A program made the translations under genes and the position numbers. Under the pieces are notes generated by a model. That model had not been told where the DNA came from. It made no database searches and saw nothing but the letters and a program-made list of their open reading frames with translations. A DNA stretch of 64,000 bases from Candidatus Saccharimonadota bacterium (lineage in GTDB: Bacteria > Patescibacteriota > Saccharimonadia > Saccharimonadales > UBA4665): positions 1 to 64,000 of the forward strand of contig DAIDIO010000004.1 in assembly GCA_027459325.1 (NCBI GenBank), written 5' to 3'. Below, piece by piece: positions 6,273-12,021 of this stretch. Every line of letters begins with the position of its first letter. Position 1 is the stretch's first letter.

Positions 6273-7859
6273 TTAATTCTTAACAACATTTAATCTGTTA
6301 AGAATGTAATTCTCTAAGTCCTTGTCTACGCAATGGATAAAGGTACCTAAAATACCTCTGGTAAGTAATGTTTTATATATATTTAGAATATATCCCTCCA
6401 GCTCGCCGTAATCTGTTATTGATCTTTTGCCGTTAAAATCCATATATTTTTTCTTGTCGACTATTATTCTTTTTGTAAGTTTATCGTATTTAAGCTCTGG
6501 TCCTATGATTACGCCGACATAGTTAAGGTCATAACCTTGAACGGTGTGTATGCAGCCTACTTCATTAACGGCGTTTTTTGAATTTACCCAATCTATGTTA
6601 GTGCTGTTCCAGCGTAATTTTAGACCATCAAGATCTATATCATAATCGTTTTCGTCTTTTGAATTTTTTGTGTTCCAGTTCCAGGCATATCCAGCAACTA
6701 ACCTGGCTAAACCATGTTTATTATTTAAGGCTATGATAGTATCTCTCATTTGATTAATGTTGGTAAAGTAACGAAAATCGTAACCCTTAAATTTAGGTGC
6801 TGTAGTCTGGTTATTAGAGAATAATGACGAAATGAATTTAATATAGTCATCACCACCTCTTACTCTTAATTGGCTAGAGAGATGATAATGCTTGGAGCTT
6901 AATGAGCTTATTTGCTCCTCTCTAATATCACCGGGTACTACAGATTGATTTTTGTCGTACAGTAATACTTGAGATTTGGATGCTTTCAAAATCCAGTCTA
7001 ATTGTGTTCCATTACTGCCTAGTTCGTAATATCTGTTTGCATTATCGTACGAACTATAGCTACTAAGGTTTACTCTTCTTCGTAATCTGTGCGCTTCATC
7101 TACTATTAGAAGATCAAAATGTTTACCTACTACATCACTCGGCCCCATGACCATCGCTGAATTCAGACCTTTAACCTTGGAAAAGACTTTCTTTAGTGTT
7201 TTTCTAAGGGATGTCATTGGTATTACAAGTCCAATTTTGTAATCTCTTGTTGCTTCTTCTTGTGTAATGTATTTTGCTAAGTAAACTGCTAATACTGATT
7301 TACCCGTTCCAGGCTCCCCGTTAACAATATGTGTTATTTGTTCACCGCTAATCATTGAGCCAAAAATTGCTTTTACAATATCTAACTGTTCGTGTGTTAA
7401 GGCTTTATAAGGCGAGTACTTAAATAAGTCACTGTTTTGTAATTGTATTAAGTCATTCTTAACAATTTCTAGCTTTTGAAGTTCTTTCCAGATTATATTT
7501 TCAAATTTAGCTTTATATAATTCCCGGTTAAAATAATTGTGATTTGAAAGTCCTTTATTTCCGTTCTGTAGCTTATACTTTCCGTCGGCCGCTATATATT
7601 CTATAAGGCGAGACTCTATGTCTAAAGCAGCAGATTTATTATATTCAGTATCGCTTATAATATAAGCGGTATCGAGTATTTGTCTGTCTGGATTATCTAG
7701 ATGTTGCTGGAATCGTTTTTTGGCATCGACGGTTTCACCAATATAAGCCTCATTAGTATTTTTTAATATATATACAACAGGCCAATCTTGTCCAAAAGGT
7801 GCCTCTTTAAGGCCGCTTAAGGTCTCTGGACTAAAATTGTACTTATATATTACGGGCAT
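6273..7859 (-). CDS. GIY-YIG nuclease domain fused to DUF2075/SF1-type helicase
   Basis: A 528-residue two-domain protein. Residues about 27-95 form a GIY-YIG nuclease domain (VVYIL at 28-32, YIGET at 39-43, Arg49, Glu82 as the likely metal ligand). Residues about 150-528 form a DUF2075/Schlafen-3-like P-loop helicase: Walker A GEPGTGKS at 181-188, Walker B LLIVDEAHRLR with Asp254-Glu255, and a late VQGYDLNYVGVIIG motif typical of DUF2075. It is 3 nt downstream of the MazG gene, so both are cotranslated or coupled. Such nuclease-helicase fusions are often associated with DNA repair or phage defence; the defence role here is inference from domains and neighbours. Confidence 0.85.
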   Translation of the reverse strand: MPVIYKYNFSPETLSGLKEAPFGQDWPVVYILKNTNEAYIGETVDAKKRFQQHLDNPDRQILDTAYIISDTEYNKSAALDIESRLIEYIAADGKYKLQNGNKGLSNHNYFNRELYKAKFENIIWKELQKLEIVKNDLIQLQNSDLFKYSPYKALTHEQLDIVKAIFGSMISGEQITHIVNGEPGTGKSVLAVYLAKYITQEEATRDYKIGLVIPMTSLRKTLKKVFSKVKGLNSAMVMGPSDVVGKHFDLLIVDEAHRLRRRVNLSSYSSYDNANRYYELGSNGTQLDWILKASKSQVLLYDKNQSVVPGDIREEQISSLSSKHYHLSSQLRVRGGDDYIKFISSLFSNNQTTAPKFKGYDFRYFTNINQMRDTIIALNNKHGLARLVAGYAWNWNTKNSKDENDYDIDLDGLKLRWNSTNIDWVNSKNAVNEVGCIHTVQGYDLNYVGVIIGPELKYDKLTKRIIVDKKKYMDFNGKRSITDYGELEGYILNIYKTLLTRGILGTFIHCVDKDLENYILNRLNVVKN

Positions 7860-10117: not shown

Positions 10118-11083
10118 ATGGCCTATTCTATCAATCCTAATCTACCTAAAGCGAGAGCAATAGGTATGAAACTACTAATTAAAGACGGGTTGCCACTACA
10201 AGTGGTAGCTAACAAGTGCGGCGTACACAGGTCTACCATCTACAGATGGAAGCTTAAATGGTTAGATATTAACCAAAATGTAGATCTAGCTAACCACTAC
10301 CGCCCTAACCGTGAGTTAGGTAAGCAATTTAGGTTTACAGCTGTAAGTTGGAGAGTACCGACCCTAAACTCTAGACCAAAGACTAGCCCTAAGGCTATCT
10401 CTGAGGAGGTTGTTAAGTTGGTTCTAGCTTTAAGAAGCAAGTTAAAGCGTTGTAGTGAAGTTATCTGGTTTCACTTAAACCAGGACTACCATATTAAGAT
10501 AAGTCTAAATAGTGTTCGGAGAATCCTAAAGCGCCATCACTACATAGATGGCCGAAAGAAACGGGTTCGTCCAGATAACCCTAGAAGGCCTGACGTTACC
10601 TACCCTGGTGAGTTAGTTGAAACAGATACTATTCACCATCTAGATCCTAAGACCGGTAAAAAACTGTATTACTATACAGTTATTGACCTGTTCACCAGGA
10701 TGACTCATGTCACCTTGGCCCCAAAGCTTAGCCCAGGACTAGCTGCACAAGCTGTACTAGAAGCTCAGGATAAATGGGGATTAGTAATATCTATGGTGCA
10801 AAGTGACAATGGTCCAGAGTATGGGCGTTACTTTGAAGATTACTTACGAAGAAGAAACATAACCACCAGACACACTAGACTACATAGGCCTAACGACAAT
10901 GCCCACATAGAAAGGTTTAACCGTACTATCCAAACTGAATGCATTGGATATTACTGGAACAGGAGTACCCAACTTAAGAACCATAAAGATAAACTAAAGG
11001 CCTATCTCGATTACTACAATACTAGAAGAGTACACTGTAGTTTACAGTACAGGACACCCATTCAAATGTTGCAAAGCTTCTGA
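10118..11083 (+). CDS. IS481-family transposase (DDE integrase core)
   Basis: A 321-residue transposase. Residues about 15-50 form a helix-turn-helix (VANKCGVHRSTIYRWKLKW). The DDE catalytic core follows: Asp in ELVETDTIHHLD (about residue 169), Asp in MVQSDNGPEYG (about 228) and Glu in NAHIERFNRTIQTE (about 266). The C-terminal YYNTRRVHCSLQYRTP segment is typical of IS481/IS3-type integrases. The gene is intact and has a near-perfect Shine-Dalgarno sequence (GGAGG, 6 nt spacing), which is itself inside a hairpin. The frame is undamaged, so the element may be active. Confidence 0.93.
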   Translation: MAYSINPNLPKARAIGMKLLIKDGLPLQVVANKCGVHRSTIYRWKLKWLDINQNVDLANHYRPNRELGKQFRFTAVSWRVPTLNSRPKTSPKAISEEVVKLVLALRSKLKRCSEVIWFHLNQDYHIKISLNSVRRILKRHHYIDGRKKRVRPDNPRRPDVTYPGELVETDTIHHLDPKTGKKLYYYTVIDLFTRMTHVTLAPKLSPGLAAQAVLEAQDKWGLVISMVQSDNGPEYGRYFEDYLRRRNITTRHTRLHRPNDNAHIERFNRTIQTECIGYYWNRSTQLKNHKDKLKAYLDYYNTRRVHCSLQYRTPIQMLQSF

Positions 11084-11184: not shown

Positions 11185-11491
11185 TGGCTCCGGGGACTGG
11201 ATTCGAACCAGCGACCTAGTGGTTACACTTTATCCATACTTTCGTAATGGTGTGGACTATATCATCATCCTTTAAATAAGGATGTAGGGCGCTATTTGAA
11301 GGATTATTGTTAGGCTCACCTTCTAGTCTCTGAACCTTCCAGGGACCTTTATCCTATCCCTGGCTTGGCTGCGGATTACCTTATCTCTATCGACTTAGGC
11401 TTCCCGCAATTCACCCTATTTTCACCAACTAATTACTTAGTTAGGCTGCGTCAATTCACAGCCACCCGCTCTACCGCTGAGCTACCCCGGA
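11185..11491 (-). tRNA. tRNA-Asn(GUU) interrupted by a group I intron, CCA encoded
   Basis: Removing 11226-11457 gives a perfect 75-nt tRNA. The acceptor stem is TCCGGGG/CCCCGGA, the D arm is GCTC/GAGC, the anticodon stem is GGTGG/CCACT, the loop is CTGTTAA with anticodon GUU, and the T arm is GCTGG-TTCGAAT-CCAGT, with CCA encoded at 11187-11185. The unspliced gene would read as a false His-like loop (CTGTGAA), so the intron is needed to see the true identity. The 5' exon ends in U and the intron ends in G, as for group I introns. The region between the IS element and smpB holds this gene and nothing else I can see. Confidence 0.93.
11226..11457 (-). ncRNA. group I self-splicing intron in the anticodon loop (232 nt, no ORF)
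   Basis: All four conserved core elements are present in order: P (AATTGCGGGAA, in 11398-11412), Q (AATCCGCAGCCAAGCC, 11362-11377), R (GTTCAGAGACTAGA, 11322-11335) and S (GATGATATAGTCC, 11254-11266). The R GACTA and S TAGTC segments pair as P7. P1 is formed by exon GGCUGU (11463-11458) with the guide GCAGCC (11449-11444), including the diagnostic U-G wobble at the 5' splice site. An 8-bp P2-like hairpin follows the guide. It is small and has no homing endonuclease, resembling the IC3-type introns of bacterial tRNAs. Insertion is between anticodon positions 35 and 36. Confidence 0.92.
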
Positions 11492-11556: not shown

Positions 11557-12021
11557 TTAGGTTCTTGTTAGCCTTCTGGCTTCCATTTCCTGATCTTTTC
11601 GCTTTAGAAGTTGACGCTTGTCGTATTTCTTTTTCCCGGTACCAATTGCTATTTTTAGTTTTATGTATTTAGAGTTAGTAATAACGCTTATTGGGACAAT
11701 GGTGCGGCCGCTTTGCTTTTCAGCAATAATAGCGTCTATTTCTTTTCGTTTTGCTAGTAGTTTTCTTGGGCGTGTCTGGTCGGATTCGCTAATCGGTATG
11801 CCGTTTGATCCGGTAATAGTAGCGTTAATTAGATATAGTTCATTATCCTTTACTGTGACATAAGCGCCTCTAATATGGCCATGACCCATACGTAGTGACT
11901 TGGCTTCTCCACCGGTTAGTTCAATGCCTACAGTTAAAGAATCACCTAGGTTATAGTCAAAGGCGGCGCGGCGGTTCTGGATGCGACCGGGAGTTGATTT
12001 CTTCTTCTTAGCCATGGCCAT
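11557..12021 (-). CDS. smpB: SsrA-binding protein SmpB
   Basis: A 154-residue SmpB that delivers tmRNA to stalled ribosomes in trans-translation. Recognisable family segments are NRRAAFDYNLGDSLTVGIELTG near the start, GEAKSLRMGHGHIRGAYV, PRKLLAKRKEID, and the basic C-terminal tail GKKKYDKRQLLKRKDQEMEARR. The N-terminus reads MAMAKKKK; the second ATG (12015) has a better-placed -10-like CATACT. No tmRNA gene is visible in this window. Confidence 0.95.
   Translation of the reverse strand: MAMAKKKKSTPGRIQNRRAAFDYNLGDSLTVGIELTGGEAKSLRMGHGHIRGAYVTVKDNELYLINATITGSNGIPISESDQTRPRKLLAKRKEIDAIIAEKQSGRTIVPISVITNSKYIKLKIAIGTGKKKYDKRQLLKRKDQEMEARRLTRT

Follow-up and report, generated by a model that had tools for sequence, protein, structure and literature searches.

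The locus described here raises the question of how a genome that seems to be without tRNA-Asn provides this tRNA. The window, that is, the whole stretch of 64,000 nucleotides that was analysed, belongs to a Saccharibacteria genome, a placement given by the neighbouring SmpB, and a default tRNA finder reports zero tRNAs in these 64 kb. The window holds a tRNA-Asn(GUU) gene whose anticodon loop is interrupted, and since the interrupted gene escapes the default finder, the genome seems to have no tRNA-Asn. Very probably the interruption is a self-splicing group I intron that was mobile in its history, and its copy in the window is a ribozyme only, which lost its HNH gene or never had one.

An interrupted tRNA-Asn gene

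The gene and its neighbour comprise the following parts.

11185 to 11491, minus strand: tRNA-Asn(GUU) gene, interrupted, CCA encoded (ARAGORN call after removal of the intron; identical intact genes in many family members)
11458 to 11491, minus strand: 5′ exon, 34 nt, tRNA positions 1 to 35, ending in CTGT (empty-site alleles; ARAGORN call after splicing in silico)
11226 to 11457, minus strand: group I intron, 232 nt, without an ORF (RF00028, 98.9 bits, full length)
11185 to 11225, minus strand: 3′ exon, 41 nt with CCA, tRNA position 36 to CCA, starting with TAACC (empty-site alleles; ARAGORN call after splicing in silico)
11557 to 12021, minus strand: smpB, adjoining the tRNA gene (Pfam PF01668, E 1e-38)

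The Rfam covariance model RF00028 matches positions 11467 to 11234 over its complete length with 98.9 bits (E 2.3e-24), against a gathering score of 50 bits, and this is the sole Rfam match within the window. The initial annotation, made from the sequence alone, had placed a 232-nt group I intron at 11226 to 11457 and had named a search with the group I model as a check; the match is present and the coordinates are exact. When 11457 to 11226 are removed, ARAGORN finds the complete tRNA-Asn that had been predicted, a tRNA-Asn(GTT) of 75 nt whose four stems are all formed and whose CCA is encoded. The intron is inserted between U35 and U36 of tRNA-Asn(GUU), inside the anticodon itself. Provided that it ends in omega-G, a single junction is possible, at which exon 1 ends in CUGU (U35) and exon 2 begins with UAA (U36). 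This junction, together with the empty-site genes described below, confirms the insertion between positions 35 and 36.

In its unspliced form the gene gives no ARAGORN call with introns disallowed, and a false tRNA-Thr(TGT) with a 232-nt intron when introns are allowed. It had been expected that the unspliced gene would be missed or taken for tRNA-His. The former holds for the default finder; as for the latter, a GTG loop is visible in the sequence and tRNA-His is not called.

At 10118 to 11083, on the opposite strand and some 100 bp away from the tRNA gene, there is a transposase-like gene of the integrase-core (rve) type that also encodes an HTH domain; no connection between this gene and the intron was seen. 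The protein encoded at 6273 to 7859 combines a GIY-YIG-like region at its N-terminus with a Schlafen group 3 helicase domain; such a fusion is unusual and might be defence-related.

Ribozyme structure and covariation

The elements of the ribozyme are given below in the direction of transcription.

11450 to 11457, minus strand: P1 loop (L1), 8 nt; about 320 nt in relatives with an HNH gene here
11444 to 11449, minus strand: internal guide sequence GCAGCC, the 3′ strand of P1, pairing with exon GGCUGU (11463 to 11458) with U-G at the splice site
11426 to 11443, minus strand: P2 hairpin with GUAA loop; 7 of 7 pairs changed on both sides among relatives
11412 to 11418, minus strand: P3 5′ strand, partner 11285 to 11291; compensatory changes in 2 pairs, 100% paired
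11401 to 11411, minus strand: P element AATTGCGGGAA, including the P4 5′ strand
11364 to 11377, minus strand: Q element AATCCGCAGCCAAG
11339 to 11363, minus strand: P6a hairpin; 6 of 7 pairs changed on both sides
11324 to 11335, minus strand: R element GTTCAGAGACTA with P7 5′ strand GACTA; P7 100% paired in 39 phylum-wide sequences
11298 to 11323, minus strand: P7.1-like hairpin GAAGG...CCTTC between P7 and P3; two pairs changed on both sides
11285 to 11291, minus strand: P3 3′ strand (family alignment)
11266 to 11284, minus strand: P8 hairpin; compensatory changes
11254 to 11263, minus strand: S element GATATAGTCC with P7 3′ strand
11234 to 11250, minus strand: P9 hairpin with GAAA loop, imperfectly paired in the window copy; 6 of 6 P9 pairs changed on both sides in 39 sequences
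11226 to 11228, minus strand: P9.0 3′ strand GUG, whose last base is omega-G (11226); partner CAC at 11252 to 11254

The reading of P, Q, R and S in the initial annotation is borne out, as is the pairing of P7 (GACUA with UAGUC in the window copy), and all eight aligned family sequences preserve the U-G wobble of P1 at the 5′ splice site. In this alignment of eight, 95.6% of cells pair, compared with 87.5% in shuffles and at most 45% with partners slid, and 24 of 77 pairs are changed on both sides; none of 500 shuffles was as high on either measure. P3, P4 and P7 are paired in 100% and P6a in 98%. Compensatory changes are found in P2, P3, P5, P6a, P7.1 and P8 within the family, and in P9.0 phylum-wide. 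P9.0 is the helix that fixes the 3′ splice site; among the 39 phylum-wide sequences it covaries between C-G, U-A and A-U, and the omega-G pair is present in 39 of 39. For the part from P7 to P9 plus the 3′ exon, 17 of 24 pairs are changed on both sides in these sequences. The thermodynamic fold of the precursor has a z of -4.2 against shuffles, and an unconstrained fold recovers P1, P2, P3, P4, P5, P6a, P7.1 and P8. No P10 is evident in the window sequence when read by eye.

tRNA-Asn copy number

The window genome (hereafter G000) is 91.5% complete. It has 40 other tRNA matches (Rfam tRNA model, with loci typed by ARAGORN), and none of them is tRNA-Asn, so that the second intact gene that would have counted against the initial annotation was looked for and not found. 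Likewise, no intact tRNA-Asn motif occurs in 12 of the 13 intron-bearing genomes tested, single-contig finished ones included; the exception, G514, has one. Four family genomes with an empty site contain the motif once each, as do both genomes in which the HNH gene is freestanding. With no intact second tRNA-Asn found, the cell should be unable to live without splicing, and these sequence data suggest that it is probably obligatory; strictly speaking, a second gene could still lie in the missing part of G000. The same genome contains a cluster of three atypical tRNA genes (L307:170-475, G000:C11:143670-143975), namely Trp-CCA, one with a His-like GTG loop and Cys-GCA. This trio duplicates or departs from the normal tRNA set and is perhaps derived from a mobile element.

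HNH endonuclease genes in and beside the intron

The window intron contains no endonuclease ORF. In L067, L070 and L071, three members of the family, the P1 loop holds 322 to 329 nt that code for a protein of about 103 aa, and the 38-nt P1 loop of L065 may be a remnant of such a gene. Two family proteins that were searched match the phage HNH family phrog_2255 (E 4e-27 and 4e-29), and one of three passes the Pfam HNH cut-off, which the other two miss. Invariant HNH-type Cys, His and Asn residues are common to 30 homologues. The AlphaFold model is confident (pLDDT 88.6), and the best Foldseek matches of the predicted fold are HNH nucleases, none of them significant (E at least 0.08).

At a cut-off of E 1e-3, 52 of the 380 Patescibacteria genomes sampled have homologues, and 28 of the 30 loci fetched lie inside or flank tRNA-Asn halves which splice to tRNA-Asn in silico. 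The gene is found outside the intron-bearing tRNA-Asn gene at L119, L123, L124, L144 and L154, and as a freestanding homologue 8 to 18 nt upstream of an intact tRNA-Asn(GTT) at L137:1480-1889 and L152:1492-1882. An extended -10 promoter-like sequence, TGGTATACT or TGGTATAAT, stands 6 to 10 nt before the HNH start codon (L067, L070, L122, L127 and others); at least 7 of 8 positions match in 15 of 35 HNH loci, against 0.48 expected from the shuffled mean. This suggests that the HNH mRNA is leaderless and transcribed from inside the intron. A hairpin GGTATAC/GTATGCC over the start codon of three Saccharibacteria copies was considered as a translational control and rejected, its upstream half being better explained by the extended -10.

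Distribution across the phylum

For the survey, model R2, with a hand-made structure, was run on the 380 Patescibacteria genomes and each strong match was spliced in silico. It replaced the RNAalifold-based model R1, which missed P7 and P9.0. Where R2 matched weakly, near E 1e-5, the match was regarded as an ordinary tRNA 3′ half and left out of the counts. A tRNA-Asn intron after U35 is present in 67 of the 380 genomes (18%); 38 of these introns are 187 to 389 nt long and 29 are 431 to 626 nt long, and most of the long ones examined have an HNH gene in the P1 loop. Introns were also called in tRNA-Phe(GAA) after U33 (15), in tRNA-Asp(GUC) after U35 (3) and in tRNAs with a CAU anticodon (14 after U33, 3 after position 36), together with less certain single calls; the counts outside tRNA-Asn are lower bounds, as R2 was built on tRNA-Asn. 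Some genomes have introns in two or three tRNAs, and G624 has them in Asn, Phe and Asp. Loci with related introns in tRNA-Phe, tRNA-Asp and CAU-anticodon tRNAs include L252, L257, L258, L245, L278 and L290-L305.

The segment from P7 to P3 takes at least three forms. At L142, L143, L144 and L150 the usual R sequence is absent, yet an HNH homologue lies in or beside the intron, and one endonuclease lineage thus seems to accompany several ribozyme types. The initial annotation was right about the group I intron, its host gene, its site and the wobble, and missed that the intron is a HEG-less member of a mobile family spread across the phylum.

Empty sites and the origin of the intron

The intron occupies the tRNA-Asn site in 13 of 93 family genomes, and many others have contiguous exons. 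Comparison with related genomes, another check that had been named at the outset, shows that at 17 fully read empty-site loci the tRNA is identical, base for base, to the predicted spliced tRNA of the window. In G000, G005 and G074 some 11 kb separate tRNA-Asn from atpD, which indicates that the intron entered a resident gene; the distance is 10 to 17 kb in several others, filled or empty.

This shared location would also suit a fixed element of the family, inherited vertically from an ancestor and undergoing loss with no recent mobility, and so would the close hosts G038 and G040, which are both filled and have sister introns. However, intron presence requires 11 changes on an AtpD tree of 26 genomes, at least seven of them forced by well-supported branches, and shows no clustering. 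Filled and empty species occur together within each of the genera g4, g13, g22, g23 and g38. The window host groups in AtpD with G074, whose site is empty, whereas its nearest introns are in G009 and the distant host G005; the introns of G000 and G005 are 87% identical, and AtpD strongly rejects the grouping of these two hosts. As the intron tree is weakly resolved, with a single well-supported branch, the data point to transfer between hosts but do not prove it. Together with the endonuclease-bearing versions, this distribution makes purely vertical inheritance unlikely, although we give it more weight than the two explanations that follow.

The gene could instead be a pseudogene broken by a dead intron, with another tRNA gene serving the Asn codons, an idea that draws on the incompleteness of the genome. 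It is very improbable, since both exons agree at every base with functional empty-site genes, the ribozyme core and omega-G are intact, tRNA-Asn is missing from the other tRNA matches, and the finished intron-bearing genomes similarly have no intact copy. Protein-spliced tRNA introns of archaea and eukaryotes sit in the anticodon loop, and the location of the insertion would fit that type; however, the full-length match to the group I model, the U-G wobble, omega-G and the covarying group I helices leave practically no probability for a protein-spliced intron or for a structureless insertion.

The formerly mobile, self-splicing group I intron is thus the preferred reading, and its direct basis is sequence, structure, covariation, empty sites and HEG-bearing relatives. 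The following account of splicing, of homing by an active nuclease and of the sequence of events is inferred from these. Transcription would give a 307-nt pre-tRNA, in which the intron RNA would fold as a group I ribozyme, with exon GGCUGU pairing with the guide GCAGCC in P1. Guanosine bound at P7 would attack after U35, and the freed exon would then attack behind the terminal omega-G, so that U35 and U36 become joined in mature tRNA-Asn(GUU); the anticodon stem formed by the two exons would help to keep them together. In relatives, the HNH homing endonuclease encoded in the P1 loop probably cuts an empty tRNA-Asn gene, and repair would copy the intron in. The window copy would persist as a ribozyme only, its HNH gene lost or never present, as the 8-nt P1 loop suggests. 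As this copy has no endonuclease of its own, its mobility is deduced from the relatives.

More broadly, we see even chances that homing at tRNA-Asn 35/36 is a phylum-wide process, in which one lineage of P1-loop HNH genes, often with the extended -10, spreads several ribozyme forms and also occurs freestanding next to tRNA-Asn genes, whether these are intact or hold an intron, with every stage of the homing cycle visible. The states of the site (empty, filled with endonuclease, filled without it, or with the endonuclease beside it) would offer a natural test of the proposed cycle of gain and loss of homing introns. With their tiny genomes, these bacteria seem to rely on a ribozyme for an essential tRNA that they have in single copy, and the same annotation artefact for tRNA-Asn should touch about 18% of the sampled Patescibacteria.

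Comparison with known introns

The introns of bacterial tRNA-Leu, tRNA-Ile, tRNA-Arg and tRNA-fMet share with the window intron a group I fold in the anticodon loop, a short length and, mostly, the lack of an ORF; the window intron differs from them in the tRNA (Asn) and in the site (35/36). A P7.1 hairpin between P7 and P3 marks subgroup IA and not subgroup IC3, to which the classical tRNA-Leu and tRNA-Ile introns belong. IC3 introns have no P7.1/P7.2, whereas the window intron has the hairpin GAAGG...CCUUC at 11298 to 11323 with compensatory changes; where subgroup IA would show P7.1 (and P7.2), the window type has one hairpin and many relatives, by eye, apparently two. Judged by this hairpin and the usual definition of the subgroups, the window intron is not a classical IC3 intron.

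The homing enzyme of the cyanobacterial tRNA-fMet intron, I-Ssp6803I, is of the PD-(D/E)XK type (PMC1995217), whereas the relatives of the window intron carry HNH. The best DNA similarity outside Patescibacteria lies in the intron core and leads to phage DNA polymerase group I introns with HNH. These core matches, which cover 17 to 34% of the query, fall under features annotated as DNA polymerase in Escherichia and Salmonella phages and look like introns; the host gene and the insertion site differ, and the HNH ORFs match phage HNH families.

In CPR bacteria, group I introns with LAGLIDADG genes are known in rRNA genes (PMC11270868); hosts and ribozyme class are the same, and the endonuclease family is different (LAGLIDADG vs HNH). 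The 23S rRNA gene of the window genome, on contig C2 (L043:3-2680), is interrupted by four or five group I introns, and rRNA introns also occur in several relatives of this genome. Saccharibacteria rRNA genes have been reported to be free of insertions (PMC11270868), and contig C2 may be mis-binned. Kinship of the window intron with the rRNA introns of its own genome was considered and rejected, as no similarity was found there, and among the family rRNA introns tested there was one 20-nt core match. More closely related are introns that other Patescibacteria have in their tRNA-Phe and tRNA-Asp genes.

Group I introns that hide tRNAs in Patescibacteria (CPR) have already been reported (PMC8172020), and a preprint by Nakagawa et al. 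(2025; 10.1101/2025.07.03.662931), cited in PMC12641178, concerns a novel intron insertion site in Patescibacteria tRNA genes. Both concern the same phylum and the same kind of gene, and overlap with the present introns is probable. The window intron thus adds to an already reported class, the group I introns of Patescibacteria tRNA genes.
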